Below are positions 19,031 through 62,267 of a DNA stretch of 64,000 nucleotides, in pieces (the first letter of the stretch is position 1; the number at the start of each line of letters is the position of its first letter). The notes beneath the pieces were generated by a model. That model was given only the letters and a program-made list of their open reading frames with translations, was not told the origin of the DNA and ran no database searches. Location of the stretch: assembly GCF_041381155.1 (NCBI RefSeq), contig NC_091144.1:35317262-35381261 (forward strand). The letters are read 5' to 3'. The stretch is from Argopecten irradians (lineage: Eukaryota; Mollusca; Bivalvia; Pectinida; Pectinidae). A program made the position numbers and the translations under genes.

Positions 19031-19032
19031 CT

Positions 19033-20343: not shown

Positions 20344-20355
20344 CTAATAAGCACC
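20344..20355 (-). CDS. Gene B terminal exon 33 (G A Y stop)
   Basis: Acceptor TTCTTATTTTACAG, then GGT GCT TAT TAG. Parallels the terminal exon of gene A; the stop is followed by ATG in both. Confidence 0.7.
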   Translation of the reverse strand, partial: GAY

Positions 20356-23300
20356 CTGTAAAATAAGAAAAATAATTGGAAATAAATTACAATTGGTCAA
20401 TCCTACTCAGGAACAATACAAGAATACTATTTTTTTTAACAAAAGCTTATATCACTTTCTACGGTAGTTAAAAAACTGCTCAAAACGTTTTCCCAAATAG
20501 GAAGCTACGTCATTACGTCCCTTTGTTGGACGCCGATAGCCGTCGGGCGGCGCTGCCTATTTTTGATATTTCGGGTTGGAAGCAAATGTAAACAAGGACA
20601 CGCCGCATCGTACACATACTCAGCACTATGATGCACAATTCTGATTATCTTTATTACCTCTAAAGTGAACAGTACACTGTTATAATAAAACTCTCGGGAA
20701 ATCTACGTCATTCACATTCACTGTTTCATAGCATTTGTTTCGTATATTAATGGGAAAATACCCATCACCAATTGAAATTGAATTGAAACTAATACAATTC
20801 GAATAACGTAATACAAGACGATAAGCTATCGGTCATATTGTTGTCTGAATATCTAGGTTTATAAATGGTGGGATTATAAACGGAAAATTTATCAAAGACA
20901 AAATGTGATTTAAAGAAACTAGTTAGAATTTGCTGTCTGGCGATTGGAGGGCACAATCTAAAAGGAATTCAACTAATTGTATCGATGGAAGATATTTAAA
21001 TGCAGTACTTACGGCTATTGGGAGACCTCCATATTGCTAGAAAAAGACAATACAAAGTATTGTTAAGAAGTAAGTATCGGACGCACAATTAAAACCAATT
21101 AATCTATAAATACTACATAGCAAAAAAAAAAGGTATTTCCTTGTATCGAAACATATGTGTTATTCAATATCCCCACCCCCCGAAAATAACAGGACCCAAT
21201 GATATGAATACTATTAATTTTAAGTTTAAGATTTCTCTGTGAACAGATGTTAAAGATGCTCCATCGCCGACGAAATGCATTTTTGTGTTAATTAGACATT
21301 TGTAAACACGATTGAGTACCAGTTACTGTATACTCTGTCGACGATGGAGCATCTTTAAACAAAACCATTGGAATGGTTGGTGAGTACGTTCCGATATATC
21401 TATCAAATCTAATGTGAAAGTAGCGAGTGTGTATGCAATCTTAGCAGCATACAATAGGATTATGAGATAAACAGAATGCTGTGAACTAAGCAGGACTGGT
21501 GGTGATGTTTTTTTTATATGCTATTAAAGTTACTTTTTCGATAGTTTACGGATCATTATTAACCAATCAGAACGAAGAATAACATTAACTTTTGTTAAAT
21601 TTTCAAGATTTTTTTTCTGATATACAACTAAAAGCTCTGAAAACAAAGAAATGTTCGTTAGCAATTATAAGAAATTCGGAAGACTAACTTCGATTTGTTT
21701 TCTTTTATTTCATAATTAGTTAAGAATTAATAACTTTTTTTTTGTTGTATTCATTTTACTGATATCCTTAAACAGATTCGCAGAAAAGAGTACAATGCTT
21801 TTCTATTTTTCCACACCTAATCTCAAATGAGCATACTTACTAATTATTACTAAATACTTATGCTGTTTTGTATTTATTTTGTTAAGTTTTGGATGGGTTA
21901 GGTGTGTGTCTGTTTTATTGTTCAGAAACAGAAGTGTAGTTTGATAATTTGTTAAAAAAGACGAATACATCTCAAAAATATTGTTTTTCCAAGCAAGATA
22001 TAAATGAAATGGAAAGACCACAGGAGGTTTTTTTTATTGAACTGATTTTTTTAAGATTATTCTCTGATAGGGTACGTAGACACGTAACATTTTACATAAG
22101 ATATAATATTGTCTATTTTGATTATTACTTACAAATGATTGAGTTCCTCCGAACAATGATGCGCCCTATCGGAAAAATAAAAATCAGTGATGAGCTTTAT
22201 TAATTACAACATCCTGTCATTCTTAACTACAAATGTATAAAAAGAATAGCTTGGCAGCAATCGGTTTTAATGGATGTAAAAAATGGAAAGACCAATAAAA
22301 TCTTTCGGTATAATGAATATTTTTTTAGGATTGATTATTCTCTTCCTGGTTCGTAGATACATAGCATTGTATATAAATCATCATATTATAAATTTTGTAT
22401 TATTACTAACAAATGTTTGTTGTTGGAATCCTTGCATTGCTGCGCCCTATCGGAATAGAAAAATCAGTAAATGAGCTTTCAAAATTACACATGAAATCAA
22501 ACATAAGCAAAAGATGAGTGACAAGAGATAATAAGCGTCTTTAGATATGTCCAAAAAGAAATAAAGCTTAAATTTAAAAAGACGTATAGAGCCCAAGTCT
22601 TTGATTTAAAGATACTTATAATAACATGCTCTTTAAAGCTTGCATTTTTCATTCAAATGACCTACAAGTGCCAACTGATTAAAAATACATATCCTTTGCT
22701 TATTTTCACTTTTGCCTACGCATTTTGTGAGAAAATATGCAATGTTGAGCTTTGATATAAGAGCAAGGAGGACAATAATAAGGCAATACGTTACATTTGA
22801 TATACTAGATATATCAATCTAATATCAAAATAAGTTTAAATGCCCTATTTACCGTCATTCAACGAAATATCTGTGCTTTCAACATTGAAATACTTCATAG
22901 AATTATTCAATGAATAAATTACGAGATAATGGAATACAACTGTGTGTGTAGTTGATTTTTATCTGCAGTGAAATCAGGTTAAATTGAAGAATTAATGGGA
23001 AATCTTATTCATAAATTATCAAGATATTCATGTAACCAAGGTAAAAAGACTGCAAATTAAGTGGGTTCTACTGACGAAGGGATATAGCGCAATATATTAC
23101 AGCTGTTTTTAAAGCTATCGATCGCGAAACGGCTTTTATTTTTAAAAATGTAACTGTAACAGCGTGTTTTAAAATTTTGTAGAGTTCCAAAAGATATCAG
23201 CTTACCGTTGACATTACACTTATCACACTGTACAATTTTAAAAAGATAAAGTAAATGTAAATATGAATAACGCGGGTCGTCTTATGGTACTAGGGAGTTG

Positions 23301-26300
23301 GCTTGTTTCCTGTCGTCGTACTAATTACCGTGCGCGAAACAGTGAAAAGAAACTTCATTCTCAACATTGATTTACACACGAAATCTTGCATTTTTTTGAT
23401 GTTGTAACTTCATTTTGGGGTATTAAGAACACGTTCTTTTTCAAAGTATATTATTCTGTCAAAGTAAAATTGTAGGGTGAATTCGCGACTCGAATTCTGG
23501 TCCTATTTTTAATGCAAATTTTGTATACATATCATACAAGATTACCACGAATCACAGCGAGAGCCGTCAGTCAACATACATATATAAATATCATACTTGA
23601 TTACCACGAATTACAGCGAGAGCCGTCAGTCAACATACATATATAGGGATGTATCTCCATAATTAGCAGAATGTTGTGACAAGGATTATACTCAATTACA
23701 GAGAAGTTAACCTGGATATACCTGTGAATATTCCATAAGGGTATCATTTATGTATAACATGTACATGTTTGGAAATAATATTACATGGACAAATCTTTTA
23801 TTTTGTAACTCTTTTTGTGATGTCAGTTATGTTCTTGATTTTTTTTATTAATAATATCCATATAATAATAATATATAATGTATAAGTAAATAATTAACAC
23901 ATCAAACGTAAAATCAATATTTGGTCCTGACTTCAAAAACTTAAAAATTCCTTTCTCTCTTTTTGACAAACATATATACATGTACATAAAAACACATAAA
24001 TGATAACTAAGGTTGCTAGTTGTAGTTCAATCATGATTACCATGAATTACAGCGAAAGCTGTCAGTCAACATACCTATATAAATATCATGCGTGATTACC
24101 ACAAATTATTGAAATTATTATCTTCAATCGCCAACTTAGAGACATACAGTCACTTCTGTGCTCGTTTCATGAGATAAACCAAATCTTTTTATCATGTTAT
24201 TGTTAATTAGAACTATACATTAAAACACTCGTACCTGCATGGGATCATATCCAAAGCCCATCTGAAACATAAAATATTTAGTGTTACATACACATACTTG
24301 ATTATAATACTCCGACTCAACCGTCTGATATCTAATATTCCGGCTGACGTGTTTTGCATTTGCATATTGCAGAATTATCTGTCCTTGCGTGTAAGTATTA
24401 ATTATGACATCATGTGTTTGCGAGTGAAACGCCATACTTTTCAGAAAAAACAACGTGATTTTGTTTGCTCACAAAATAATGACGTCACAATTGATGCCTG
24501 CTTGCATGGGAGGTAACTCTGTAATATGCAAATATTCCGACATTTCATTGCAAACGGCATGAGGTAATTTATTCCGTATCAGATATTCGGGCTGGTATAT
24601 GTTATACCCAAACCGCGCTTCATTCTTCACTTGTATGATAGCGTATGAATAGTGCATGGGTAATACTTTATTTCACGTGCAATGCTCTGTCTGTCGTGTA
24701 ATTCTTCGTTTCACGTGTAATACTCAATTTCACGCGTAGTATTCCACCTCGAGTGTTATACTACGTTTCACGTGTAAAATATCAACGTGTAATGAACAAG
24801 TCCCACGCTCAAGAACAGGTGGGACCTAAAGTTTAAACTTTAGCCACGTCATAAATGTGTAAAGCCTCGAAAATTGTATGTTTTGTAAGATAAAAACACG
24901 TCCATCGATTTTGGTCGATTATACGAAACTATATATGAAAATGGAATGATGTGAATTATGTAATTTCATGTTCTTCGTTATAAGAATTCAACAGGTTCGA
25001 TCGATCCTCGATGTTAGAAAAAGAAATTCGAAAAGACGGGAGGACGAGCATCCTCTATACTCCAGGGGTTCCGATCACTTACGATCTCTACACCCTTGTA
25101 CTATCTCATAGTAAAATTGGAGGCAACTCAGGGGGAAATCTGAACAGAACAGAACAGTTAATTTAGTCGTTTGATGTACATCAAAAGAGCCGTATAACAG
25201 TTCACTGTGGTTGGCTGTGTGGCTTTCATGTTGGGCGTCGCTCTCTCCGTAATCTTCAAAGGAAATCCTTGCAGGCCTTTTATTGGTTCAGACCCCCCGC
25301 CCCCCCCCCCTCCCTGAGTTGCCTCCAGTTTTACTATGAGATAGTCCAGGGGTGTAGAGATTGTAAGTGATCGGAACCCCTTGGGTATCGAGGATGTAGG
25401 ACGAGATGAACGAAACAGGTGATGGAGGATGCTTGGCAATTTCATTTTGAACGATTTTTTTGTTGTTGCTACATTAGAAATAAACAAATGTCTCACGTTA
25501 GCTGCTCCATTCAATAATCCACCAGTACCAGCCTACAGACAAACAGCAGGCTTATAATGATAATACAGTTGTATTGGTTGTTCATATCAACCAAAAACAT
25601 AAAAAGTACCACAAAAATCTGGCTGTATAATTTATTTGCGTTGTTCCTTTACTAAGTGTATTATTTTCAGTGAAGAATAGTTGTATTAGGTGAGGTTTGC
25701 ATAAATACATCATATCATTTTACCAATCGCTTCAAGGTTCTTATGTAATGGTAGATGTATGATTTTAATCTTTTGAAAGCATGAATTAACTATCTAATTA
25801 TCATATATATATATATATATATATGTATCAATAAGAACGGATCTCTATAGGATAACGAGACAGCTAGCGACTTGACTAGCGTCAAAGTTTTCCAAAAAAA
25901 CATACATCTAATTTATTTGCAAATGATATTCATAAACTATCTCTAAGATGTTTAAGTAATCAGCCTTTTGTAAGAGTAATTGAAATTTACGAAGTAAGCT
26001 ATACCATTCAATAATTACAATTCATAAAAGTCTCCGATTTCTCGAAACAAAAGTACAGAATAAGTCAAAACTTTTTTGAGTTTTTCTCCTTATGCAACTG
26101 AAGTGAAACATTTTGACTAAGACGGATGTTGACTGCAATTTGTTTTTGAGAAATCGGGGCCTTATTTCGTAACAACAAGATTATATTACATAAGTCATAT
26201 TGTTTTGGTGATCTACCATTGACGGTATCGATTAATAAATATTAATTTTTGTTGCTAGTTGTAGTTCAATCATGATTACCATGAATTACAGCGAAAGCTG

Positions 26301-29300
26301 TCAGTCAACATACCTATATAAATATCATGCGTGATTACCACAAATTATTGAAATTATTATCTTCAATCGCCAACTTAGAGACATACAGTCACTTCTGTGC
26401 TCGTTTCATGAGATAAACCAAATCTTTTTATCATGTTATTGTTAATTAGAACTATACATTAAAACACTCGTACCTGCGTGGGATCATATCCAAAGCCCAT
26501 CTGAAACATAAAATATTTAGTGTTACATACACATACTTGATTATAATACTCCGACTCAACCGTCTGATATCTAATATTCCGGCTGACGTGTTTTGCATTT
26601 GCATATTGCAGAATTATCTGTCCTTGCGTGTAAGTATTAATTATGACATCATGTGTTTGCGAGTGAAACGCCATACTTTTCAGAAAAAACAACGTGATTT
26701 TGTTTGCTCACAAAATAATGACGTCACAATTGATGCCTGCTTGCATGGGAGGTAACTCTGTAATATGCAAATATTCCGACATTTCATTGCAAACGGCATG
26801 AGGTAATTTATTCCGTATCAGATATTCGGGCTGGTATATGTTATACCCAAACCGCGCTTCATTCTTCACTTGTATGATAGCGTATGAATAGTGCATGGGT
26901 AATACTTTATTTCACGTGCAATGCTCTGTCTGTCGTGTAATTCTTCGTTTCACGTGTAATACTCAATTTCACGCGTAGTATTCCACCTCGAGTGTTATAC
27001 TACGTTTCACGTGTAAAATATCTACGTGTAATGAACAAGTCCCACGCTCAAGAACAGGTGGGACCTAAAGTTTAAACTTTAGCCACGTCATAAATGTGTA
27101 AAGCCTCGAAAATTGTATGTTTTGTAAGATAAAAACACGTCCATCGATTTTGGTCGATTATACGAAACTATATATGAAAATGGAATGATGTAAATTATGT
27201 AATTTCATGTTCTTCGTTATAAGAATTCAACAGGTTCGATCGATCCTCGATGTTAGAAAAAGAAATTCGAAAAGACGGGAGGACGAGCATCCTCTATACT
27301 CCAGGGGTTCCGATCACTTACGATCTCTACACCCTTGTACTATCTCATAGTAAAATTGGAGGCAACTCAGGGGGAAATCTGAACAGAACAGAACAGTTAA
27401 TTTAGTCGTTTGATGTACATCAAAAGAGCCGTATAACAGTTCACTGTGGTTGGCTGTGTGGCTTTCATGTTGGGCGTCGCTCTCTCCGTAATCTTCAAAG
27501 GAAATCCTTGCAGGCCTTTTATTGGTTCAGACCCCCCCCCCCCCCCCCCCTCCCTGAGTTGCCTCCAGTTTTACTATGAGATAGTCCAGGGGTGTAGAGA
27601 TTGTAAGTGATCGGAACCCCTTGGGTATCGAGGATGTAGGACGAGATGAACGAAACAGGTGATGGAGGATGCTTGGCAATTTCATTTTGAACGATTTTTT
27701 TGTTGTTGCTACATTAGAAATAAACAAATGTCTCACGTTAGCTGCTCCATTCAATAATCCACCAGTACCAGCCTACAGACAAACAGCAGGCTTATAATGA
27801 TAATACAGTTGTATTGGTTGTTCATATCAACCAAAAACATAAAAAGTACCACAAAAATCTGGCTGTATAATTTATTTGCGTTGTTCCTTTACTAAGTGTA
27901 TTATTTTCAGTGAAGAATAGTTGTATTAGGTGAGGTTTGCATAAATACATCATATCATTTTACCAATCGCTTCAAGGTTCTTATGTAATGGTAGATGTAT
28001 GATTTTAATCTTTTGAAAGCATGAATTAACTATCTAATTATCATATATATATATATATATATATATGTATCAATAAGAACGGATCTCTATAGGATAACGA
28101 GACAGCTAGCGACTTGACTAGCGTCAAAGTTTTCCAAAAAAACATACATCTAATTTATTTGCAAATGATATTCATAAACTATCTCTAAGATGTTTAAGTA
28201 ATCAGCCTTTTGTAAGAGTAATTGAAATTTACGAAGTAAGCTATACCATTCAATAATTACAATCCATAAAAGTCTCCGATTTCTCGAAACAAAAGTACAG
28301 AATAAGTCAAAACTTTTTTGAGTTTTTCTCCTTATGCAACTGAAGTGAAACATTTTGACTAAGACGGATGTTGACTGCAATTTGTTTTTGAGAAATCGGG
28401 GCCTTATTTCGTAACAACAAGATTATATTACATAAGTCATATTGTTTTGGTGATCTACCATTGACGGTATCGATTAATAAATATTAATTTTTGTTGCTAG
28501 TTGTAGTTCAATCATGATTACCATGAATTACAGCGAAAGCTGTCAGTCAACATACCTATATAAATATCATGCGTGATTACCACAAATTATTGAAATTATT
28601 ATCTTCAATCGCCAACTTAGAGACATACAGTCACTTCTGTGCTCGTTTCATGAGATAAACCAAATCTTTTTATCATGTTATTGTTAATTAGAACTATACA
28701 TTAAAACACTCGTACCTGCATCATGGGATCATATCCAAAGCCCATCTGAAACATAAAATATTTAGTGTTACATACACATACTTGATTATAATACTCCGAC
28801 TCAACCGTCTGATATCTAATATTCCGGCTGACGTGTTTTGCATTTGCATATTGCAGAATTATCTGTCCTTGCGTGTAAGTATTAATTATGACATCATGTG
28901 TTTGCGAGTGAAACGCCATACTTTTCAGAAAAAACAACGTGATTTTGTTTGCTCACAAAATAATGACGTCACAATTGATGCCTGCTTGCATGGGAGGTTA
29001 CTCTGTAATATGCAAATATTCCGACATTTCATTGCAAACGGCATGAGGTAATTTATTCCGTATCAGATATTCGGGCTGGTATATGTTATACCCAAACCGC
29101 ACGTCATTCTTCACTTGTATGATAGCGTATGAATAGTGCATGGGTAATACTTTATTTCACGTGTAATACTCTGTCTGTCGTGTAATTCTTCGTTTCACGT
29201 GTAATACTCAATTTCACGCGTAGTATTCCATCTCGAGTGTTATACTACGTTTCACGTGTAAAATATCAACGTGTAATGAACAAGTCCCACGCTCAAGAAC

Positions 29301-32300
29301 AGGTGGGACCTAAAGTTTAAACTTTAGCCACGTCATAAATGTGTAAAGCCTCGAAAATTGTATGTTTTGTAAGATAAAAACACGTCCATCGATTTTGGTC
29401 GATTATACGAAACTATTTATGAAAATGGAATTATGTGAATTATGTAATTTCATGTTCTTCGTTATAATAATTCAACAGGTTCGATCGATCCTCGATGTTA
29501 GAAAAAGAAATTCGAAAAGACGGGAGGACGAGCATCCTCTATACTCCAGGGGTTCCGATCACTTACGATCTCTACACCCTTGTACTATCTCAACATACGT
29601 CTAATTAATTTGCAATTGATATTTATAAACTATCTCTAAGCTATTTAAGTAATCAGCTTTTGCAAGAGTAATTGAAATTTACGAAGTAAGCTATACCATT
29701 GAATAATTACAATACATAAAAGTCTCCGATTTCTCGAAACAAAAGTACAGACTTAAAGTCAAAACTTTTTTTGAGTTTTTCTCCTTATGCAACTGAAGTG
29801 AAACATTTTGACTAAGACGGATGTTGACTGCAATTTGTTTTTGAGAAATCGGGGCCTTATTTCGTAACAACAAGATTATATTACATAAGTCATATTGTTT
29901 TGGTGATCTACCATTGACGGTATCGATTAATAAATATTAATTTTTGTACGAAATCTCAAATGTGTCTGTTACTAACCACTAGACATTACAGAAGAGAACG
30001 GTTATAGGTCACGAGAGGTTAACGTATTGTAGGTATCATTAAATATCTTACATTGAATCCAGTAGCACCACCAGCCTAAAAAATAAAGTAATTGAAAAGT
30101 TTTACAGCGATAGTCGTCATACATACATGTCATACAGATTTATAGCGAGATTCGTCATACATATATCATACAGATTTGTAACGATAGTCGTCATACATAC
30201 ATATCATACAGATTTATAGCGAGACTCGTCATACATATATATCATATAGATTTAACGATAATCAATGGCCGTTCATAGATATTGATTTTCAATCGACAAC
30301 ATGTAGAGACATATACAGTTACTTCTGTGTCCATTTCATGAGATAAACCAAATATCTTTATCCTGTTATTGAAACGTTAATTTTAACTATACATTAAAAC
30401 ATTCGTACCTGGAATCCTGCATTATATCCATAGGCAGGAGACTGAAACAGAAAGTATTAAGTGTATAGCTACATAAGTGTATCATAATCATACTTGATTG
30501 CAACACTCCGACTCAAATGTCTTATCTCTAATACTACTCATGTACATAATATCCGACATGTTACTGCAAACGACATGAGGTAATCTACTCCGTATCAGAC
30601 ATTCGTGCTGTGTTTTTTTCACTCGTGTGATTAACTTTTGAATCGTACATTGGTAACACTTAATCTCACGTGTAATGCTCTGACGTAATACACCGCTTCT
30701 CGTTTCATACTCCATTTCACGTGTAATACTCAGTATCGCGTGTAATAAACCGTCGCATGTGTAATACTCCGTCGTACGTGTAACACATCATCGGACGTGT
30801 AAGACATCGTCGCACTGTAATACTCAGTCTCACGTGTAACACTACGTCGTGTGTGTAAAACAACATCGTACGTGTAACACTACGTCTCACGTGTAATACT
30901 CCGTCGTACGTGTAACACAAAATCGTACGTGTTAAATACCATAGTACGTGTAACACATCGTCACACGTATAATACTCTGTCTCACGTGTAAAACTGTGAC
31001 ATATGATACACCAATACTGTTTTTAAAATTTTGCACGCCATGAATGTTTAAAGCATCGACAATTTTATGTTCATTGATTCTGGTCAATCATACAGAATTA
31101 TTTACAAATATGGAACTATAAATATTTCTTATGTTCTCCATATTATGTGTAAAACGCGTAAGCTTATAATTCGGACAGATGAGAAAAGGAGGATAACGAA
31201 TTTGTAGTTGCAGGATGCTTTTAAATTTTATTTTTTATATATAAGAAATAAATAAACGTCTTACACCAATTCCTCCAGCGAAACTTCCTGCACCACCAGT
31301 CTAAAGAAAAACAGTATGCTTATATATAACAATGTAACCGGTTGTTCAATATAACAACACGCTAACAGCGAATACGTGAAAATCACAACACGCTAACAGC
31401 GGATACATGAAAATCACAACACGCTAACAGCGAATACGTGAAAATCATAACACGCTAACAGCGGATACATGAAAATCACAACACGCTAACAGCGGATACA
31501 TGAAAATCACAACACGCTAACAGCGGATACATGAAAATCACAACACGCTAACAGCGGATACATGAAAATCACAACACGCTAACAGCGAATAGATGAAAAT
31601 CACAACACGCTAACAGCGAATAGATGAATATCACAACACGCTAACAGCGAATACATGTAAATCACAACACGCTAACAGCGGATACATGAAAATCACAACA
31701 CGCTAACAGCGAATACATGAATATCGCAACACGCTAACAGCGAATAGATGAATATCACAACACGCTAACAGCGGATACGTGAATATCACAACACGCTAAC
31801 AGTGAATACATGAATATCACAACACGCTAACAGCGAATAGATGAATATCACAACACGCTAACAGCGGATACGTGAATATCACAACACGCTAACAGCGGAT
31901 ACGTGAATATCACAACACGCTAACAGCGAATACATGAATATCACAACACGCTAACAGCGAATACATGAATATCACAACACGCTAACAGCGAATAGATGAA
32001 TATCACAACACGCTAACAGCGGATACGTGAATATCACAACACGCTAACAGCGGATACGTGAATATCACAACACGCTAACAGCGGATAGATGAATATCACA
32101 ACACGCTAACAGCGGATAGATGAATATCACAACACGCTAACAGCGGATAGATGAATATCACAACACGCTAACAGCGAATAGATGAATATCACAACACGCT
32201 AACAGCGGATACGTTAATATCACAACACGCTAACAGCGGATAGATGAATATCACAACACGCTAACAGCGGATAGATGAATATCACAACACGCTAACAGCG

Positions 32301-50300: not shown

Positions 50301-53300
50301 AAAAAGTTGAGTGATCAAATTCATCCTAAAGAGAGAGCATACAGTTTACTATGTAATTAATAAACTCGCGACCATAAAGTCGCTTATTAAGTTATGTAAC
50401 TGTAGTACAAGATAACAAAAAATTACGCATTTTAGAATATGGCGATTTTTTTAATATAATTCTGTAGAGACACGAGAGTGCTACTATAACATGAAGATTA
50501 ATTTTGATCAGATTTCAGAAGCACCGAAGTGTTTTGTAAAGGTCAGCAAAATGATGTTCAGACATCAGATTTGTACAAAATATACTTAACGCATTATTTC
50601 ATGTTGGACGGCAGAGATAACATATAAAAAATAAGTGAATTTCTATCGGGAAGATATACAATGATTTCAAACTGTAACTTACCCCGGAAGTAACAGGGGC
50701 AGACGAGAACTGAAAAAAAGAAGAACAGCGTATATTACCTAGCTATTAAGTGCTTGTAGGCTGATATAACAGTCCAAATTACTGATGAATATTTCGCGGT
50801 TGGTTAATTTCGCGATTTCCTGCAGTAAACTATTCGCGTGGGGTTATTTTCGCGATCTAATGACCGCGTAAATTACGAAATTTCCTTTTGACATTAAATC
50901 TCCTGTATCATGTACCATTATAAAATCTGAATATACATGTATATTATTATATCATACATTTCTGGCTATTATAAAATAATATTAATTCTCCCTTTAGTCT
51001 GATCATTTTGACCCGTGATTTTATACTTATTGGCCGTGCAGCGACCCGAGAACAACTGAACGCGGGGCAGACCGGGGAAAGTATTATTATAAATCTTTTC
51101 CTTACCAATCAAGGTATTATCTGTATATATCGGTTGATTGTTTGTCAATGCAAAATATTTACATTACCATTACACATTACCTATATGTTGCTACTAAGCC
51201 CAATGTATGATATTTTCTTGTATTTACATTGGCAGTTAGGCTCTGGTGTACAAATACCACAATCAGAGTTCAAAAGATCAAGCATCGACTTGGTTTTACG
51301 TCAGTATGATAACTCACTGAAGAATAGAACATATTCTGAAAATTGATCAATATGGAAATATATTCTAATGAAAATAATTGAAATAGATTGAAATGTTGTA
51401 CTTATCCTTGTATATCCCGTTTAACGATGGGACTATTTCAATTACTGTTATTTCAAGTCGGTTGTCCGTGACTTGATATTTTTCACTATACAAAATTTTA
51501 ACTTTTATTTCCATACTTTACTTTTATTGTTGTTCGTATGTTAACTAGTTTACAAAAAAACCCAATTGTTTTATAAATCGAAACACTCACGCACCAAATT
51601 GATAAATCGTTCTTCCAAAGCTATAATTCGTCCCTATCCGTCCATTAATTAAGTACTTGATTGAGAAACAAAATAAATTATAAGATGTTTTAGTCTTAGG
51701 GGATTTTTGTGATCGAACGTTTCCGACAAGTATCAACATTTGCCGTTATCAAGGCTTTTATAAACAAGCTATCATAGACTATGGCGTGACAATTGTTTCA
51801 ATGTGAAACAATAGAGTTGTCATCTTCTATGAAGATCTTTTATCAGCAGAAATATGTTCAAACTTCAGAATTTGACAAAATATACTTAACGCAAAAATAT
51901 CAAACAGATAATTCACTTCTATGGTGAAACTATTCAATATTCTCTGTGCCGCTGCTTGATATTGCTTAGACGATACTTAAAACAAATATTGTATATAACT
52001 ATGATAAAAACAGCGAGATCTCAGTCATATGTTTCATAAGTGTGTCACTATGAGGTATATGTGTCAGACATTTTGACGTCTCTATTTTACTCTATTGAAG
52101 CCAAAACGTTTTCTTGACTGCTTTACAAGTTAATGCCGTGATTTAAAAGGAGAAAATTTATCGAGCCTAAAACAAATTTCAATGCGATTCTTTCATTAAA
52201 GTCTCGCGTCCTCCGTCTCTTGTAATATTTTGTGAGCGCAATTCGCGTCGTTTTCTCCGAAAAGTATGACGTTACACTCGTAAACACATGACATAGCAAT
52301 CGATGCCTACCCGCATAACTCTCATAATTAAACAAACAAAACAAAAAACAAATAAAAAAAAAAAACCAGATATCTGTAATCTAATGATTATCCCATGGTT
52401 GATTTTTTTTTAACTTTCCCGCGAGCTCGAAAGTGCTAGTACGCGAAATTTACAGTGGTATCAGAGCATGAACTGCACTCCCTACTGATTAATATACGAC
52501 AGCTATCCAACATGACAAAGCTACATTCGAGAACAGTTGTTGTACATACCGTGGTAGGACTTGAGAATCCGTAATTCATTCCAGTCTAAAAAAAGGTATC
52601 AAAAGAAAACATAAAAAGTGTATGATAGTCACTATGGCGTGACAATTGTTTCAATGTGAAACAATAGAGTTGTCATCTTCTATGAAGATCTTTTATCAGC
52701 AGAAATATGTTCAAACTTCAGAATTTGACAAAATATACTTAACGCAAAAATATCAAACAGATAATTCACTTCTATGGTGAAACTATTCAATATTCTCTGT
52801 GCCGCTGCTTGATATTGCTTAGACGATACTTAAAACAAATATTGTATATAACTATGATAAAAACAGCGAGATCTCAGTCATATGTTTCATAAGTGTGTCA
52901 CTATGAGGTATATGTGTCAGACATTTTGACGTCTCTATTTTACTCTATTGAAGCCAAAACGTTTTCTTGACTGCTTTACAAGTTAATGCCGTGATTTAAA
53001 AGGAGAAAATTTATCGAGCCTAAAACAAATTTCAATGCGATTCTTTCATTAAAGTCTCGCGTCCTCCGTCTCTTGTAATATTTTGTGAGCGCAATTCGCG
53101 TCGTTTTCTCCGAAAAGTATGACGTTACACTCGTAAACACATGACATAGCAATCGATGCCTACCCGCATAACTCTCATAATTAAACAAACAAAACAAAAA
53201 ACAAATAAAAAAAAAAGAGCCAGATATCTGTAATCTAATGATTATCCCATGGTTGATTTTTTTTTAACTTTCCCGCGAGCTCGAAAGTGCTAGTACGCGA

Positions 53301-56300
53301 AATTTACAGTGGTATCAGAGCATGAACTGCACTCCCTACTGATTAATATACGACAGCTATCCAACATGACAAAGCTACATTCGAGAACAGTTGTTGTACA
53401 TACCGTGGTAGGACTTGAGAATCCGTAATTCATTCCAGTCTAAAAAAAAGGTATCAAAAGAAAACATAAAAAGTGTATGATAGTCACATAGAACTTCAAA
53501 AACTTCATGACTTTGACTATCATTTTATCTAAGAATCGTGAATCTAAAAAATGCAATAAGTATGATCAAATTAAGAATTTTTGTCTATTAAACAAATTGT
53601 ATATCCATCAACTTTATAATGAATATAATGGGAACTTACGGAAATATAGAACGATAACTTTATAACTTAAAAATTTAATGACGAAAAAAAATTATTGAAC
53701 GCGATCAAATACAGACCAATGTTTTCAATATGGAACTATTATAGCATCCATATATTCAAGTTATATTAAGTGTGATTTGATCGAAGTAGAGTTCAAGTGA
53801 TCGCAATTTTTGGAGTTATGTGACAGTACCAACTTAACGTCTCGTGTTCATGTCCTCGGCTACTACTATATCCTAATTTAATAAAGTATGTTTTATCAGG
53901 ATGAAAATGGGGCTAAAGTACTCGAGAATACTTACACCTATGCTGCTAGCGATTCCCTGCAAATGCAAAACAAAATTTGAAATAAGTTTATTTGGTCTAC
54001 AAGTCCAGGAACGAGGAAATGCATTCATCTGATACTGATTAATGTTGGACAGACATTTGGAAACTTTGAGCTATCAAATTCACCCCAAAGAGAGAGTATA
54101 CTGTCGAGTAGGTAATGACATAAACTATTGTCGAGTCGCTCAATGAGTCCCATTACATCACATACATAAATCTAACCAAAAATGATTACCAAACTTTACA
54201 CAGTGTCGAAAATTATAAATGTTTGCAAGGTAATTATGTAGCCTTACGAAAATGCTACTATAATATTAAGATTAATTTTGCTCAGATTTCATGTACACCA
54301 ATGTTTTATGAAAATCATCAAAGTGATGTTCAGATATCATAATGGTACAAAATAAACTCAAAGCATAATGTTATATTGGAGCATAATGTTATATTGGAGC
54401 AGCAGAAATAGCATATCAAAGAATAGTTTATTTCTTTTTGGGAGATTTACGACTATTTCAAAGCATTATTTACTGTGCTATATGTGAGTAGAGCCGTCGC
54501 TCCATACTGAAAAAGGAATAAAAGCATATAGTGTTTGCAGGTTGACATAAGAGCCAAATTATCCGAAGAAACGTGGAAGAACAAAAGTTATATTACTGAG
54601 TAATCCTACTTTGGTGTGACATGTAATACGGATATCCTCGGTAAAGAATTGTGCAATGTAATTTTGTAACATTGAGGGACACCATAGTGGTACTCTTTTA
54701 AGAAGATCTGCAACATCATGTTCAGATATCACTTTACAGAATAAACTTAACGCAGTATGGTATGTTGGAGCAGTAGAGTTAAAGATGCCCCACCGCCGAC
54801 AGAGCATACACGATAGTCATTGTTTGGCCAATGATTGGTGTTTAATTGTGTATATAGTATATATAATAAACACCAAAAGAAAAATAATAAAATATAATTT
54901 AATTTGCTTTTGGTGCATGCCAATCCAGTTCCTCATTCCTTATAGGACATAGTGCCACGGAATTTTTTGGTATGCAATTTATTCATTAATAAGTTCTATT
55001 GGGGAGATTTACGAAGATTTCAAAGCTATGCTTACTGTTACGCCATAGTTGGGTAGAGCTGCCGATGCATACTGAAAAGGGTAGAAAAACACACATTACC
55101 TAGAATTGCAGGTTTATAACTATTATCATTATGGCATGTTGGAGCAGCAGAAGTAGCATATCAAATTAATAAGTTAATCTCTATTCGGGAGATTTACGAA
55201 GATTTCAAAGATTAACTTACTGAGGTATAGCTGGGTACAGCTGGCGACGAAAACTGAAAAGGGAAGGAAAACACACATTACCTAGAATCACAGGTTTAAT
55301 ATTATTATCATTATGGCATGTTGGAGCAGCAGAAGTAGCATATCAAATTAATAAGTTAATCTCTATTGAGGAGATACATGTATACGACGATTTCAAAGCT
55401 TTACTTACTGTTGTGCCATAGGAGATGGGTAAAGCCGACGAATACTGAAAAGGGAAGGAAAACACATATTACCTAGAATCACAGGTTTAATATTATTATC
55501 ATTATGGCATGTTGGAGCAGCAAAAGTAGCTTGTTTTGTTGATGTTCTCGGTAAAGAATTGTTGCAGTGTAATAAAATTTATGTGATATGTAAAATTATG
55601 TAAAGTCATATTAGAATCTCACACCTCGTGACAATTAAAAATGAACTTTATCAAACTCGTTAAAAAGTTTGATATGGTACTCGCATAAAGGTTCGTGGCA
55701 TATAAAATGATTGAACTCGTTTGATAAATTCCATATTACATAGCCATTCATGTAAGATTCTCTATTTATTCTCTATATGGCAAAATCATTTTGGTATGTA
55801 TGTAAAAACTTCCACGAGAGCAAAATGGTTGAAATTTCACTTATAATTTTTTTCTCGATGAATTTTATTTTGTGCATTTGATCTTTTCGATAGTTTCAAT
55901 AAGAAAACTTACATTTCACTACGAAACATTTAATAAATATCTTAATACACAAAAATCTATAAATATTTCATATCTTATCTCTGTTCATTATGAATGTCGT
56001 TCTATAAATCTATCGGAAAAATTGATTCATTGCTTTGAAATAAATACCATGATATATCTTAGAAAAATGAAGATTAAAACAATAAAAAAAAAAAAAAAAG
56101 CAATGCGACGCCGGAGATATGTCGTATTCTGACGTCTCACATTATGGAACCATATTACAAATGCGCGGACAAAAATCCAAAAGCAGAATTTTTAGAATAA
56201 AAAAGAAATGTGTATAGAAAGTCAGTGAACTGGGCTCAGTTTCATGAAAATTCTGTAACTTAAAACAATTCCTTAACATAAAATTTCCCATAGGAAAGAA

Positions 56301-59300: not shown

Positions 59301-59667
59301 TTGTGTTTGCTATTTTTTCAGTTCAACACTAAATACAGATATTCATAAATATACTTTGCATGTTAAATGTAATTCCATGAGTCCTCTATTTTCTGAGTAT
59401 ATTCTTACTTACAACATTTGCCATGAAACCACCTTTTAAGTGGGATGGTTCATAATTGGGAGCAAGATATCCTCCATAACTGTATGCTGGTGATGCTCCG
59501 GCGTAGAAGGTCCTCCCTTTAATGAATGTTGGAGCAACTGTTTGATACGATGTTGATCCTCCAATTGCCCCCTGATATATTGGAGCGCTATAGCTAACAC
59601 CACCTCCGACATTGTACGTCGCTAAAGCAGACGACACACATATCAGCAGGAGGGCTGCGACCTTCAT
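20344..59667 (-). CDS. Gene B: secreted Gly/Ala/Ser/Tyr-rich protein built from 31 micro-exons
   Basis: Predicted product about 398 aa from one 85-codon exon (59413-59667) and 31 micro-exons of 12-54 nt, listed separately. Every exon is bounded by GT and AG, is a multiple of three and keeps phase 0. Residues 1-16 (MKVAALLLICVSSALA) look like a signal peptide. The first exon has TYNVGGGVSYSAP and GRTFYAGASPAYSYGGY. The rest reads as short motifs: YSSALP-type, GYxxxxMP-type, MGFGYDPxQ and AGTGG. Charged residues and cysteine are nearly absent after exon 2, consistent with an extracellular structural or elastomeric protein. No named family recognised. It lies upstream of gene A on the same strand, with the same non-coding first exon and tiny Tyr-stop last exon. 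Exon copy number reflects recent tandem duplications. Some exons may be missing from, or wrongly included in, this hand-read model. Confidence 0.75.
21013..21036 (-). CDS. Gene B exon 32 (QYGGLPIA)
   Basis: 24 nt; acceptor TGTCTTTTTCTAG, donor GCC|GTAAGT. Confidence 0.75.
21254..21354. mobile_element. 101-bp MITE with TTAA target duplication
   Basis: Ends AGATGCTCCATCGCCGAC and GTCGACGATGGAGCATCT, flanked by TTAA at 21250-21253 and 21355-21358. Confidence 0.8.
22133..22165 (-). CDS. Gene B exon 31 (GASLFGGTQSF)
   Basis: 33 nt; acceptor TTTTTCCGATAG, donor TTT|GTAAGT. Confidence 0.75.
22411..22446 (-). CDS. Gene B exon 30 (GAAMQGFQQQTF)
   Basis: 36 nt; acceptor TATTCCGATAG, donor TTT|GTTAGT (non-consensus after GT). 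Clearly related to exon 31 (both start Gly-Ala and end in Phe, with the same CCGATAG acceptor). Confidence 0.68.
23111..23430. mobile_element. diverged CCTTTCCG-family MITE, ends missing
   Basis: Interior words AACGGCTTTTATTTTTAAAA, GCTTACCGTTGACATTACAC and GTTGTAACTTCATTTTGGGG match the members at 40892 and 43874. Confidence 0.6.
23500..23650. repeat. about 62-bp direct repeat
   Basis: Two tandem copies of a segment with GATTACCACGAATCACAGCG and GAGCCGTCAGTCAACATACA. Related words open each 2.24-kb unit. Confidence 0.7.
24235..24261 (-). CDS. Gene B exon 29 (MGFGYDPMQ)
   Basis: 27 nt; acceptor TTTATGTTTCAG, donor CAG|GTACGA. Third member of the MGFGYDP set. Confidence 0.77.
24337..24541. 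mobile_element. TGACGTCA-bearing MITE (copy in 2.24-kb unit 1)
   Basis: Ends ATTCCGGCTGACG and AAATATTCCGAC; inverted TATGACATCATGTGTTTGCG and AATGACGTCACAATTGATG. Repeated in unit 2 (about 26576-26781) and unit 3 (about 28820-29025). Confidence 0.65.
25055..25400. mobile_element. foldback element (CCGATCACTTACGATCTC ends), in each 2.24-kb unit
   Basis: CCAGGGGTTCCGATCACTTA with its inverse about 310 bp away, plus inner inverted TAGTAAAATTGGAGGCAACT. Related copies at about 27298-27630, 58165-58445, and the left part only at about 29545-29592. Confidence 0.7.
25497..25532 (-). CDS. Gene B exon 28 (AGTGGLLNGAAN)
   Basis: 36 nt; acceptor GTTTGTCTGTAG, donor AAC|GTGAGA. Same as exon 26. The 118-residue frame that starts within it is intron read-through. 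Confidence 0.72.
26474..26500 (-). CDS. Gene B exon 27 (MGFGYDPTQ)
   Basis: 27 nt; acceptor TTTATGTTTCAG, donor CAG|GTACGA. Differs from exon 29 by one Met/Thr change. Confidence 0.77.
27737..27772 (-). CDS. Gene B exon 26 (AGTGGLLNGAAN)
   Basis: 36 nt; acceptor GTTTGTCTGTAG, donor AAC|GTGAGA. Identical to exon 28. The longer open frame through this exon is read-through into the intron. Confidence 0.72.
28716..28745 (-). CDS. Gene B exon 25 (MGFGYDPMMQ)
   Basis: 30 nt; acceptor TTTATGTTTCAG, donor CAG|GTACGA. It has one codon more than its two sister exons, from a local ATG duplication. Confidence 0.77.
30052..30075 (-). CDS. Gene B exon 24 (AGGATGFN)
   Basis: 24 nt; acceptor TTATTTTTTAG, donor AAT|GTAAGA. 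Confidence 0.72.
30095..30255. repeat. about 36-bp tandem repeat
   Basis: Four units with TACAGATTTATAGCGAGA, a TCGTCATACATA word and ATATCA, between exons 23 and 24. Confidence 0.7.
30409..30441 (-). CDS. Gene B exon 23 (SPAYGYNAGFQ)
   Basis: 33 nt; acceptor TTTCTGTTTCAG, donor CAG|GTACGA. Flanks resemble those of the MGFGYDP exons. Confidence 0.75.
30660..31000. repeat. ACGTGTAA-rich minisatellite
   Basis: About 20 copies of a 16-18-bp unit like CGTCTCACGTGTAATACTC or CGTCGTACGTGTAACAC. Many units carry the CACGTG or TACGTG core. Shorter related runs occur at about 24668-24795, 26907-27034 and 29156-29278. Confidence 0.85.
31265..31300 (-). CDS. Gene B exon 22 (TGGAGSFAGGIG)
   Basis: 36 nt; acceptor TGTTTTTCTTTAG, donor GGT|GTAAGA. 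Confidence 0.75.
31354..32610. repeat. 31-bp minisatellite, 41 copies without length change
   Basis: The word GCTAACAG recurs from 31361 to 32601, i.e. 40 intervals of exactly 31 bp. Units differ only by substitutions: GCGAATA/GCGGATA, ACATGA/ACGTGA/AGATGA, AAAATC/ATATC. Located in the intron between exons 21 and 22 of gene B. Confidence 0.95.
32820..34010. repeat. about 52-bp AT-rich tandem repeat
   Basis: Around 20 units like ACATTAACATGTATGCAGGT followed by TTAGTATATCTAATATATTG and CTTATTAAATAT. Several units are damaged or shortened (33,280-33,310; 33,650-33,720). Confidence 0.85.
34543..34557 (-). CDS. Gene B exon 21 (EVVGT)
   Basis: 15 nt, the smallest internal exon of the model. Acceptor AATTTTGTTTCAG, donor ACT|GTAAGT. 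Very short, so confidence rests on the splice sites and frame only. Confidence 0.6.
35505..35522 (-). CDS. Gene B exon 20 (VVAGPL)
   Basis: 18 nt; acceptor GATTTCATTTCAG, donor TTA|GTACGT. Confidence 0.65.
35883..36967. mobile_element. about 1.1-kb element with CACCTGAG inverted ends
   Basis: Begins near ACGGTCACCTGAG and ends CCTCAGGTGACCT. No intact frame. A partial copy lies at about 38938-39400 (shared start TCAAATGGACGCCTGTTGAC). Confidence 0.6.
37157..37198 (-). CDS. Gene B exon 19 (YNAAIGGGYQGGAG)
   Basis: 42 nt; acceptor TTTCTGTTTTAG, donor GGA|GTGAGT. Confidence 0.72.
37370..38930. repeat. dispersed repeat block with an internal palindrome
   Basis: Contains a palindrome at about 37561-37678 (CATCGGGGTATGAACGAAAT and its inverse; loop TTTGCAAACAAA), repeated at about 41986-42098. 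The whole block is duplicated at 41.8-45.3 kb. Confidence 0.7.
40452..40582. repeat. homopurine A/G tract
   Basis: About 130 bp of almost pure A and G on the plus strand (GAAA and AAAAG runs). On the minus strand it would be a long pyrimidine tract about 250 bp downstream of exon 18. The Phe/Leu-rich frame across it is low complexity. Confidence 0.85.
40796..40840 (-). CDS. Gene B exon 18 (AVGGMATGYNYGLPS)
   Basis: 45 nt; acceptor TTCACATTGTAG, donor TCT|GTAAGT. Confidence 0.72.
40892..41283. mobile_element. about 395-bp MITE with TTAA target duplication, CCTTTCCG family
   Basis: Ends AGGCCCTCTACCTTTCCG and CGGAAAGGTAGTGGGCCT, flanked by TTAA on both sides. Relatives at about 23111-23430, 43874-44273 and 60468-60905, with fragments at about 12830-12905 and 62870-62995. 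Confidence 0.8.
42640..42790. repeat. hairpin element
   Basis: ATATGAAGGATAGGGATATT and its inverse, with CCCGAGGGT/ACCCGAGGG near the centre; nearly perfect 140-bp palindrome. Confidence 0.75.
43715..43741 (-). CDS. Gene B exon 17 (GYPIGGAMP)
   Basis: 27 nt; acceptor TTGCATTTGAAG, donor CCT|GTAAGT. Last of the GY..MP series. Confidence 0.7.
43874..44273. mobile_element. about 400-bp MITE, CCTTTCCG family
   Basis: Ends ATACCTTTCCGAAACGGC and TTTCGGAAAGGTAGTGTG; right TTAA intact, left mutated. Same family as 40892-41283. Confidence 0.7.
45610..45633 (-). CDS. Gene B exon 16 (GYPSVSMP)
   Basis: 24 nt; acceptor TTTATTTTGCAG, donor CCT|GTAAGT. Confidence 0.72.
46163..46189 (-). CDS. Gene B exon 15 (GYNAVGAVS)
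   Basis: 27 nt; acceptor TTGCATTTGAAG, donor TCT|GTAAGT. Confidence 0.7.
46339..46511. mobile_element. TGACGTCA-bearing MITE in a gene B intron
   Basis: TTCCGTTTTTGCATAATACA at the left; inverted CATTGTGACGTCATTATTTT and ATGACGTCACAATCAATACC inside. Confidence 0.65.
46734..46760 (-). CDS. Gene B exon 14 (TFSGAVSMP)
   Basis: 27 nt; acceptor TTATGTTTTGCAG, donor CCT|GTAAGT. Confidence 0.72.
47267..47290 (-). CDS. Gene B exon 13 (GYTSVGMP)
   Basis: 24 nt; acceptor TTGCATTTGAAG (A instead of C before AG), donor CCT|GTAAGT. One of five related exons encoding the GYxxxxMP-type motif. Confidence 0.7.
48916..48942 (-). CDS. Gene B exon 12 (FSSAPVTSG)
   Basis: 27 nt, identical in sequence and splice sites to exon 11. 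Confidence 0.75.
50683..50709 (-). CDS. Gene B exon 11 (FSSAPVTSG)
   Basis: 27 nt; acceptor CTTTTTTTCAG, donor GGG|GTAAGT. Identical to exon 12; part of the 1767-bp tandem duplication. Confidence 0.75.
52550..52585 (-). CDS. Gene B exon 10 (TGMNYGFSSPTT)
   Basis: 36 nt, identical in sequence and splice sites to exon 9. Confidence 0.75.
53404..53439 (-). CDS. Gene B exon 9 (TGMNYGFSSPTT)
   Basis: 36 nt; acceptor TTTTTTTAG, donor ACG|GTATGT. Identical to exon 10; both lie in an 853-bp tandem duplication. Confidence 0.75.
53936..53956 (-). CDS. Gene B exon 8 (GIASSIG)
   Basis: 21 nt; acceptor TTTTGCATTTGCAG, donor GGT|GTAAGT. The intron flanks (GCATTTGCAG; GAATACTTAC on the plus strand) match those of exons 13-17. 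Confidence 0.7.
54474..54506 (-). CDS. Gene B exon 7 (YGATALLTYST)
   Basis: 33 nt; acceptor CCTTTTTCAG, donor ACA|GTAAAT (weaker). The most diverged member of the exon 4-7 array. Confidence 0.65.
54781..54860. repeat. MITE fragment between exons 6 and 7
   Basis: GTTAAAGATGCCCCACCGCC marks the left end of the family whose complete copy is at 21254-21354. Confidence 0.5.
55036..55071 (-). CDS. Gene B exon 6 (YASAALPNYGVT)
   Basis: 36 nt; acceptor CCCTTTTCAG, donor ACA|GTAAGC. Related to exons 4, 5 and 7. Confidence 0.75.
55221..55253 (-). CDS. Gene B exon 5 (FSSPAVPSYTS)
   Basis: 33 nt; acceptor CCCTTTTCAG, donor TCA|GTAAGT. Flanks nearly identical to exon 4. Confidence 0.75.
55409..55444 (-). 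CDS. Gene B exon 4 (YSSALPISYGTT)
   Basis: 36 nt; acceptor CCCTTTTCAG, donor GTAAGT. First of four related exons in a local tandem array of about 190-bp units. Confidence 0.75.
55445..56228. other. intron between exons 3 and 4, proximal part
   Basis: Starts with another copy of the 190-bp unit flank (GGCATGTTGGAGCAGC). An 86-residue frame near 55872-56132 has no splice support. No further exon seen. Confidence 0.5.
56229..56425. mobile_element. MITE with GGGC(C/T)CAGTTTCATGAA ends
   Basis: About 200 bp; CTGGGCTCAGTTTCATGAA at the left and TTCATGAAACTGGGCCCAG at the right. Inside are inverted TTCCTTAA/TTAAGGAA words. Confidence 0.75.
56961..57475. mobile_element. 515-bp MITE with TTAA target duplication
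   Basis: Ends AGTTATATGTGCCGTA and TACGGCACATATAACT, flanked by TTAA at 56957-56960 and 57476-57479. No coding frame. Confidence 0.8.
57989..58042 (-). CDS. Gene B exon 3 (ATAGRASSGLNYGLTNPT)
   Basis: 54 nt, the longest micro-exon. Acceptor TTGTTTGCAG, donor ACG|GTAGGT. The GLNYG...PT pattern resembles exons 9 and 10 (GMNYG...PTT). Confidence 0.75.
58165..58445. mobile_element. foldback element, same family as 25055-25400
   Basis: GCGATCACTTACTATCTCTA and the inverse GTAGAGATCGTAAGTGATCG at the other end. The 132-residue plus-strand frame across it is repeat-derived. Confidence 0.65.
59203..59229 (-). other. possible extra micro-exon YYESVWGTS
   Basis: Minus strand TTTTGTGTTAG acceptor, 27 nt in frame, donor GTAATT. 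Size and phase fit, but the Glu and Trp content is unlike the other micro-exons and the donor is weak. Not included in the gene B length. Confidence 0.25.
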
Positions 59668-59699
59668 CTTGTTATCTTTGTAGCACGTGCGGTGAATCA
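59413..59699 (-). CDS. Gene B exon 2: signal peptide and N-terminal domain (85 codons)
   Basis: The acceptor GTTGTTTTCAG ends at 59700. A 32-nt leader ends ATAACAAG before the ATG at 59665-59667. Met-Lys-Val is preferred to the upstream in-frame ATG because that one lies before the acceptor. The exon ends GCA AAT GTT|GTAAGT (donor 59407-59412). The mature part has GGGVSYSAPIYQGAIGGS and ASPAYSYGGYLAPNYEPS, and holds nearly all the lysines of the protein. Confidence 0.85.
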
Positions 59700-59732
59700 C
59701 TGAAAACAACGCTTACAGTGGTAAACAACGTT

Positions 59733-60385: not shown

Positions 60386-60467
60386 ATCTTATTATATGAT
60401 ACATTTTAAAAATAGAAGAAATAAAAAAACATAAACATTTGATATCACTGAAAATTGTTAACTTAAA

Positions 60468-60905: not shown

Positions 60906-61570
60906 GCAAAGCCTCAGAAGAGCGCAGCTACATGTAAAAGATTATATTATAACATCATAACTTTATGTTGTCTACATTTTTCTACGAGATTAACAATAAA
61001 ATATATTTCATTGACATGCACATAATATCAATAGTTAGAAAGAATTCGAAATAATCCAAATGGAATAGTGCAATATACTTCAATCTTGTTTTTATCAGAT
61101 GCATAGAAAACTCGGCAATATGCCATGTTATCACAAATACGCGCGGACCTGTGCCGTCATCTTTGGCGTAGGTTTTGTAACGTCACTGCTGACGGTGCCG
61201 TGCGCTTGAGAACATACACGGTCTATATTGGACCAGTACATTTATTGTGTTAGTCTTGTATATGTGTAAATTAAAACTACTAACAGTAATAATTTTAAAG
61301 CGTATCCCGATGACACATTTCGTTTAGCTAGTACAAACAATTTCAAATCTCGTCGTGCTGATAACGAGAATTAAAACATGGTTGCCGACATGGAGGCGCG
61401 AGACTTTTCCCGCGGGACACGATTTCAAAGTCCAAGGGGTACTGGAATGTATTGAATCTATATGCTCACACACGTGTTATGGTTAGTAAAGTTTCGCTCT
61501 ACGCGGCCTTCTTATTAACGGTAAGGTAATAACTTTGTTAAAGCAAAAGGAAAATGTTAGATTTCGATAT

Positions 61571-61672
61571 ATTCCGTTTTTGCATATTACAAGAGTTAGC
61601 TCCCTTGCGGGTAGGTATCGATAGTTACGTCATTATTTTGAGGGTGCAATTCACGTCGTTTTCTCCGAGATT
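61571..61672. mobile_element. half copy of the TGACGT-type MITE in intron 1
   Basis: ATTCCGTTTTTGCATATTAC through AGTTACGTCATTATTTTGAG; the right half is absent. Confidence 0.6.
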
Positions 61673-61814
61673 ATTATATGAATATATACAGAATAGTATT
61701 ACGAGATGAATCCCAGCGAATCGTTAATAGCTATTAGAGTACTTCCTTGTAGGTGATATGAATAGACGGTCAAAGCCAAACTTGCTTTCTCGCCATTTCC
61801 CATCTTCAATGCTC

Positions 61815-61890
61815 CAGGAGTTACTATCACTATCGTAGATATAACGATAGTTATATAGTTCTAGTAACTCCTGGAATATCAAGGATGGCA
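61815..61890. repeat. short palindrome in gene B intron 1
   Basis: CTCCAGGAGTTACTATCAC, then ACTATCG/CGATAGT, then AGTAACTCCTGGA: an imperfect 60-bp hairpin. Confidence 0.65.
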
Positions 61891-62198
61891 ATTTACATAA
61901 GATGATAGAAGAAGATTGCTTAGAGGATACCTATCTGACACTCATTAAGCCAATCATTTAAGAAGCTATGGTAACATATAAGCATAAAGATAAAGATTAA
62001 TACATGAAATTTTCGATGAGTAGAAATTGATTTTTTTTTTTTTTTTTTTTTGTTTTGCATTTGCCATTTTGGATACATCACTTTAAGTGTAAGACTTAAC
62101 AAGGATATTTCTTTACAAGAAATATACTTGTTAAGTCTTAAACTCACAAAAAAATGTGTTCTCGAATATTTCATGTTATACATCAAACCAAATCTTAC

Positions 62199-62240
62199 CT
62201 GATAAAGAAGAAAGGACTGCAACCTTTAGCTGTTGATGAC
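62199..62240 (-). other. Gene B 5' untranslated exon 1
   Basis: Donor ATCAG|GTAAGA with GTAAGA at 62193-62198. The 5' end is inferred from the TATA box. The exon lacks an ATG in the 42 nt shown. Intron 1 runs to 59700. Confidence 0.55.
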
Positions 62241-62267
62241 AGAGTAGCGAATATACCGACTGGGTTG

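Follow-up and report, generated by a model that had tools for sequence, protein, structure and literature searches.

What does a gene make whose coding sequence lies mainly in a row of tiny exons, and is such a row real? The gene that raises this question lies on the minus strand (62240-20344) of a 64,000-nucleotide (nt) stretch of the bay scallop genome (Argopecten irradians, contig NC_091144.1, positions 35,317,262 to 35,381,261), hereafter the window; all coordinates are window positions. An earlier note, made before any database search, had read the locus as a single micro-exon gene whose exons share strand and phase. We find that this is the gene annotated as 'prisilkin-39-like' in Argopecten irradians, and that it probably encodes a secreted, disordered, hydrophobic, elastin- or silk-like structural protein that is varied by cassette splicing.

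The gene product was searched against ~5.8 billion proteins, and the best 7,999 candidates were scored. At E<=0.1, only two clusters were found among the scored candidates, both from scallops: P0001 (E 9e-191) and P0002 (E 1.3e-9). P0001 is the NCBI entry 'prisilkin-39-like isoform X3 [Argopecten irradians]', from a cluster of 6 sequences of which one was compared. P0001 is matched at 345/345 residues when exons 2-6, 8-10, 12-26 and 28-30 are joined and exon 30 is continued past its donor as far as a stop codon. All 25 junctions of this reconstruction are in phase 0, with no alternative GT-AG placement within 15 nt. Isoform X3 fixes acceptor and donor for 24 internal micro-exons, and for exon 30 the acceptor. 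Exons 7, 11 and 27 are skipped in X3, which terminates by reading through the exon 30 donor. The NCBI entry and the window gene are the same gene, and the entry's name is silent on exon architecture. The protein is already in the databases, under misleading names.

The gene is made up of a 5' untranslated region (5'UTR) exon, the ordinary exon 2, 31 internal micro-exons and a last exon of 12 nt. The internal micro-exons measure 15-54 nt (mean 30.6, median 30), every length is divisible by 3, and all coding-exon boundaries fall between codons (phase 0). The spliced coding sequence is 1215 nt long and open (404 codons plus stop), ~3% of the coding span, and the 32 introns of the coding region measure 149-3597 nt (median 945). 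The single gene, strand and phase proposed earlier are thus borne out by the junctions and by P0001. The good GT-AG signals also hold, with AG before and GT after 31/31 internal micro-exons, though the exon 31 donor is weak. The note's count of 31 exons of 12-54 nt needs adjusting: the array stands, and it consists of 31 internal exons of 15-54 nt plus the 12-nt terminal exon. Positions 19001-25600 and 34501-63540 were inspected by eye and 25601-34500 by script only. The features of the gene, in transcript order, are as follows.

62268..62275, minus: promoter-like TATA-like box TATATAAA, ~30 nt upstream of exon 1 (sequence only)
62199..62240, minus: exon 1, putative 5'UTR, start approximate, donor CAG/GTAAGA (sequence)
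59413..59699, minus: exon 2, with 32 nt of 5'UTR, start codon, 85 codons and signal-peptide-like start MKVAALLLICVSSALA; coding part identical in P0001
57989..58042, minus: exon 3, ATAGRASSGLNYGLTNPT (splice sites; in P0001)
55409..55444, minus: exon 4, YSSALPISYGTT (splice sites; in P0001)
55221..55253, minus: exon 5, FSSPAVPSYTS (splice sites; in P0001)
55036..55071, minus: exon 6, YASAALPNYGVT (splice sites; in P0001)
54474..54506, minus: exon 7, YGATALLTYST, skipped in X3 (splice sites; surroundings resemble exons 4-6)
53936..53956, minus: exon 8, GIASSIG (splice sites; in P0001)
53404..53439, minus: exon 9, TGMNYGFSSPTT (splice sites; in P0001)
52550..52585, minus: exon 10, identical copy of exon 9 (splice sites; self-comparison; in P0001)
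51318..51335, minus: exon 11, NMFYSS, absent from X3 (splice sites only)
50683..50709, minus: exon 12, FSSAPVTSG (splice sites; in P0001)
48916..48942, minus: exon 13, identical copy of exon 12 (splice sites; self-comparison; in P0001)
47267..47290, minus: exon 14, GYTSVGMP (splice sites; in P0001)
46734..46760, minus: exon 15, TFSGAVSMP (splice sites; in P0001)
46163..46189, minus: exon 16, GYNAVGAVS (splice sites; in P0001)
45610..45633, minus: exon 17, GYPSVSMP (splice sites; in P0001)
43715..43741, minus: exon 18, GYPIGGAMP (splice sites; in P0001)
40796..40840, minus: exon 19, AVGGMATGYNYGLPS (splice sites; in P0001)
37157..37198, minus: exon 20, YNAAIGGGYQGGAG (splice sites; in P0001)
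35505..35522, minus: exon 21, VVAGPL (splice sites; in P0001; aligns with Pecten GAIGPV)
34543..34557, minus: exon 22, EVVGT (splice sites; in P0001; aligns with Pecten EMIGDT)
31265..31300, minus: exon 23, TGGAGSFAGGIG (splice sites; in P0001)
30409..30441, minus: exon 24, SPAYGYNAGFQ (splice sites; in P0001)
30052..30075, minus: exon 25, AGGATGFN (splice sites; in P0001)
28716..28745, minus: exon 26, MGFGYDPMMQ (splice sites; in P0001)
27737..27772, minus: exon 27, AGTGGLLNGAAN, skipped in X3 (splice sites; same sequence and near flanks as exon 29)
26474..26500, minus: exon 28, MGFGYDPTQ (splice sites; in P0001)
25497..25532, minus: exon 29, AGTGGLLNGAAN (splice sites; in P0001, chosen over exon 27 by gene order)
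24235..24261, minus: exon 30, MGFGYDPMQ (X3 confirms the acceptor and reads through the donor)
24223..24234, minus: alternative X3 C-terminus, VRVF and then stop (sequence; P0001)
22411..22446, minus: exon 31, GAAMQGFQQQTF, weak donor GTTAGT with score -0.3 (splice sites; absent from X3)
22133..22165, minus: exon 32, GASLFGGTQSF (splice sites; Pecten C-terminal similarity; absent from X3)
21013..21036, minus: exon 33, QYGGLPIA (splice sites; Pecten C-terminal similarity; absent from X3)
20344..20355, minus: exon 34, last coding exon, GAY-stop (sequence; absent from X3)
20276..20281, minus: ATTAAA, poly(A)-signal-like (from the letters alone)

Exon 11, a candidate called from its splice sites, is the least certain of all exons. 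Several other candidates were not taken as exons: 43047-43073 and 38178-38204, which sit within repeated DNA; a poly-Gly stretch (27533-27553) and the open reading frames around it, in a repeat unit; a 12-nt in-frame sub-exon of exon 20; a weak candidate in the first intron (61187-61204); and longer or shorter exon alternatives with weaker donors.

Could splice-like motifs simply have been drawn by chance from AT-rich intron sequence? Chance does place AG before and GT after some short stretches. We used a composition-blind control that collected AG..GT pairs of 9-60 nt with a summed splice score of at least 14, with 59400-64000 outside the control. On the gene strand (20300-59400), 28/31 such pairs were multiples of three, compared to 4/8 on the opposite strand there; in region 1-20300 the figures were 2/11 (minus) and 2/4 (plus). 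Because tandem duplicates are among these pairs, the pairs are only partly independent and the count is inflated. At a looser score of at least 10 the contrast fades, with multiples of three making up 65/127 pairs on the gene strand and 48/106 on the other strand, 20 of these 48 being open. Strict thresholds combined with amino-acid weights gave 43 minus-strand rows and 0 plus-strand rows, a partly circular result as the weights were trained on the exons themselves; 40 of the 43 lie in the gene's coding part, and some are alternative ends of one exon. Looser thresholds with the same weighting (20300-59380) gave 1 plus-strand candidate. Among pairs with high splice scores, the contrast between strands and in phase speaks against a chance origin, and the 345-residue identity is decisive: the micro-exon gene is not a chance product because a 26-exon subset reproduces the NCBI protein residue for residue. 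Chance is ruled out for those 26 exons, while exons 7, 11, 27 and 31-34 fall outside this proof. For the array as a whole, we give chance a negligible probability, in line with the earlier judgement that it was unlikely.

Self-comparison of the window reveals how the array came about. It grew via tandem duplication of units consisting of a micro-exon and its intron.

23996..29592, minus: tandem duplication in units of ~2.24 kb, 98-99% alike, in which the MGFGYDP exon occurs three times (26, 28, 30) (self-comparison)
47633..51359, minus: tandem duplication of ~1.77 kb, two units, 98.6% alike, with exons 12/13 and decayed exon copies (self-comparison)
51770..53487, minus: tandem duplication of ~0.85 kb, two units, 99% alike, with exons 9/10 (self-comparison)
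54985..55530, minus: tandem triplication of ~180 bp, carrying exons 4, 5 and 6 (self-comparison)
50060..50086, second copy 48293-48319, minus: exon-like 27-nt remnant YSAAPIMSG, with AC for the acceptor AG (sequence)
49551..49568, third copy 47784-47801, minus: exon 11 copies, with donor GC for GT (sequence)

The two 27-nt look-alikes lack the AG acceptor and were not counted as exons. Older relations, roughly 70-80% similar, join the surroundings of exons 14-18 and those of exons 24/26. The similarity of 100-nt flanks is by itself a noisy guide to exon families: among 400 random pairs, the 99th percentile lay at 0.63. We therefore relied only on pairs well above 0.63 or on BLAST matches. Among the 17 paralogous exon pairs aligned, lengths differ by 0 or 3 nt. 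Taken together, the duplications and the copies with lost splice signals show micro-exon gain, spread and loss within the array.

As the earlier note had it, the product is rich in Gly, Tyr and Ala and appears to begin with a secretion-type, signal-peptide-like start. The mature part (388 residues) contains G 20.6%, A 12.4%, S 11.1%, Y 9.0%, T 8.8% and P 7.0%, with ten D/E/K/R/H in total, no C or W, and a computed isoelectric point (pI) of 5.5. For the gene product, Pfam returned no family at E<=1 and solved structures gave no meaningful relative (best E 0.18). AlphaFold2, run on P0001 with six sequences, returned a mean predicted local distance difference test (pLDDT) score of 29.8 and a helix at residues 3-15 only. 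The best reading is a predicted disordered, extracellular structural protein with a silk- or elastin-like profile. Disordered structural proteins of this type are reported from the shells of molluscs, the byssus of mussels and the hinge ligament of scallops (PMC4944945).

The second cluster, P0002, comes from the scallop Pecten maximus. When the N-terminal 75 residues of P0002 served as query, the hits were P0001 and five Pecten clusters (P0002-P0006, with 1+1+1+2+11 = 16 member sequences). Each of the five maps to a single contig, for which an identical length of 42,360,788 bases is recorded in every case. The five Pecten representatives (isoforms X13, X16, X15, X14 and X3) are identical over the first 75 residues, and ten/ten pairwise comparisons show whole inserted or missing blocks only (e.g. 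7, 8, 10, 12 or 25 residues), with 0 substitutions. This pattern, in five of 16 sequences, suggests a single Pecten gene with ~16 annotated isoforms, assembled from short cassettes that keep the frame. Isoform models at NCBI generally draw on RNA reads. The Pecten maximus protein and the bay scallop gene product have an identical 18-residue start, a similar composition and a common core (GPLEVVGTTGGAGSFAG vs GPVEMIGDTAGAAGFAG), and the five Pecten isoforms compared share the C-terminal GAY of scallop exon 34. However, identity is only 35-47%, depending on the alignment, and the repeat cassettes differ. This likeness is one of protein sequence. Exons 20-24 align with the Pecten core at a score that 0/2000 shuffles reach. 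For the exon 31-34 peptide and the Pecten C-terminus, 1/2000 shuffles score as high, a similarity that lends some support to this peptide as a predicted part of the product. The isoform names clash (PE-PGRS, fibroin heavy chain-like, RNA polymerase II subunit-like) despite the identical first 75 residues, which is a hazard for annotation. With the isoforms of a single Pecten gene named so unlike one another, comparable genes elsewhere may carry wrong labels or be overlooked.

How would such a gene work? Because every internal unit is in phase 0, gain, loss or skipping of a cassette keeps the frame, and the gene is therefore a row of interchangeable cassettes of 5-18 residues. Tandem duplication of micro-exon and intron units builds the row, as the self-comparison shows. 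Cassette splicing would then yield proteins that differ in length and repeat mix; these are seen as database isoforms, and the animal presumably uses them. The product most likely becomes part of an extracellular material that the mantle (shell matrix, periostracum or hinge ligament) or the foot (byssus) produces, and its tyrosines may be available there for cross-linking. Several points weigh against this account. The isoforms of both scallops are database gene models, and exons 7, 11, 27 and 31-34 are missing from X3. A low pLDDT obtained from six sequences is weak evidence of disorder. Finally, paralogous exon sequence shows no clear excess of conservation over the intron beside it: in the 17 pairs, which overlap and give short alignments, exon divergence was more than 0.05 higher than flank divergence in 5, more than 0.05 lower in 6 and within 0.05 in 6. 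This mixed result does not demonstrate selection on the exon sequence, and we do not claim faster evolution of exons than introns (positive selection).

The main competitor accepts the gene model and treats the isoforms as splicing noise or annotation combinatorics, with random skipping and one or two near-full-length products that matter. We regard this as a substantial possibility, though one on the lesser side of even. Micro-exons are considered harder for the splicing machinery to handle (PMC4317164); the exon 31 donor is weak, and X3 ends via intron read-through rather than with the Pecten-like GAY end. On the other hand, Pecten too has many isoforms, which differ by whole blocks only in the five sequences compared, though noise may occur in both species. 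Somewhat less probable is that the product is a matrix protein of the calcified shell layers, of prisilkin-39 type, acting in the chitin framework and in crystal control. The NCBI name of P0001 favours it, as does a neighbour on the same strand ~9 kb past the 3' end (10947-10189), another Gly/Tyr-rich gene whose start resembles a signal peptide. Against it, the Pecten isoform names contradict each other, as expected of composition-based naming, and the E<=0.1 clusters among the scored candidates are from scallops only. No Pinctada protein appeared at E<=0.1 among those candidates, and kinship with Pinctada fucata Prisilkin-39 is suggested by the database name only. Prisilkin-39 itself is described as having a part in building the chitin framework and in controlling crystal growth in Pinctada (PMC7265298). 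Shematrins are described as glycine-rich, low-complexity, basic proteins with glycine-rich tandem repeats and GnY arrays, expressed in the mantle of other bivalves (PMC9210306). The scallop product resembles them in being glycine-rich and of low complexity, but we rejected this identity, given its pI of 5.5, its ten charged or His residues in 388 and its lack of long GnY arrays.

The earlier note had named the micro-exon genes (MEGs) of schistosomes as the nearest parallel, which holds for the design. As described in PMC10526429, MEGs encode a signal peptide, have exons of 6-81 nt that are mostly multiples of three and introns of 0.1-5 kb, and splice out central exons. The scallop micro-exons (15-54 nt, all multiples of three) and introns (149-3597 nt) fall within these ranges. 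As to a signal peptide, a signal-peptide-like start is read from the scallop sequence and residues 3-15 are modelled as helical. Unlike the scallop array (median 30, n = 31), MEG exons are mostly 15 nt and number 10-20 per gene. Common descent would account for the shared design of signal peptide (putative in the scallop), symmetric tiny exons, long introns and skipping (PMC10526429), yet we consider it highly improbable. No schistosome protein is in the two E<=0.1 clusters, no sequence kinship with MEGs was seen at E<=0.1 among the scored candidates (MEG presence in the database was unchecked), and neither of the two post-signal motifs given in PMC10526429, FL(phi)(phi)FX6Wp(K/H/R) or FxxLFL(I/R)(V/D/E)Fxx(D/E), occurs in the 404-residue product, which is without Trp. 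MEG kinship has no support from sequence among the scored candidates. The aphid bicycle genes encode putatively secreted, fast-diverging proteins from many same-phase micro-exons, with internal exons nearly all in phase 2 (PMC9168663). They match the scallop gene in the many same-phase micro-exons and the putatively secreted product, and differ in phase (2 vs 0) and in sharing no sequence with it among the scored candidates. Among vertebrates, the tropoelastin and SCPP genes likewise code for secreted proteins of structural or biomineral type by way of small symmetric exons in series; they belong to another phylum, and their exons are larger than those seen here.

Among the papers listed by searches of the open-licence literature (micro-exons, molluscs, shell proteins, prisilkin), we found no description of a mollusc micro-exon gene of such architecture. 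The earlier note, which knew of no standard mollusc description of the type, could not see that NCBI had already annotated the protein. On the strength of this literature search, the architecture is new for a mollusc structural protein and of a kind familiar from flatworms and aphids. Isoform exon skipping and tandem duplication as the origin of the array go beyond what the note had proposed. If the preferred reading is true, molluscs have evolved the micro-exon design anew, here in the service of a structural material and not of an effector of parasitism or gall formation. Arrays of same-phase micro-exons would then seem to be a path that evolution can take repeatedly towards secreted proteins that change fast. 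Recent, older and decayed duplicates adjoin within this one gene, giving a concrete way in. More tentatively, the gene may be an independently evolved micro-exon system that acts as a splice-programmable material; phase-0 cassettes would still be duplicated and lost, protein versions would follow tissue, age or condition, and cassette number might vary between individuals.

The window also holds a neighbouring gene and several repeats. The open reading frame at 10189-10947 (minus) encodes 253 residues with a signal-peptide-like start and Gly/Tyr/Asn/Met-rich repeats, and has a shematrin-like look. It had no Pfam domain and no relative at E<=1e-3 among 7,991 scored candidates (the query began at 10929, six residues past the start codon). 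A ~170-base repeat, which may be a miniature transposable element, is scattered in introns and flanks on the gene strand, and four minisatellites are present.

63107-63278, 59732-59928, 46336-46520 and 28842-29016, gene strand: copies of the ~170-base repeat (self-comparison)
26597-26771, 24358-24532, 19973-20131 and others, gene strand: further copies of the ~170-base repeat (self-comparison)
31348-32608: minisatellite of 31-base units, in the intron between exons 22 and 23
32821-34041: minisatellite of 52-base units, in the intron between exons 22 and 23
15110-16018: minisatellite of 29-base units
63550-63999: minisatellite of 34-base units

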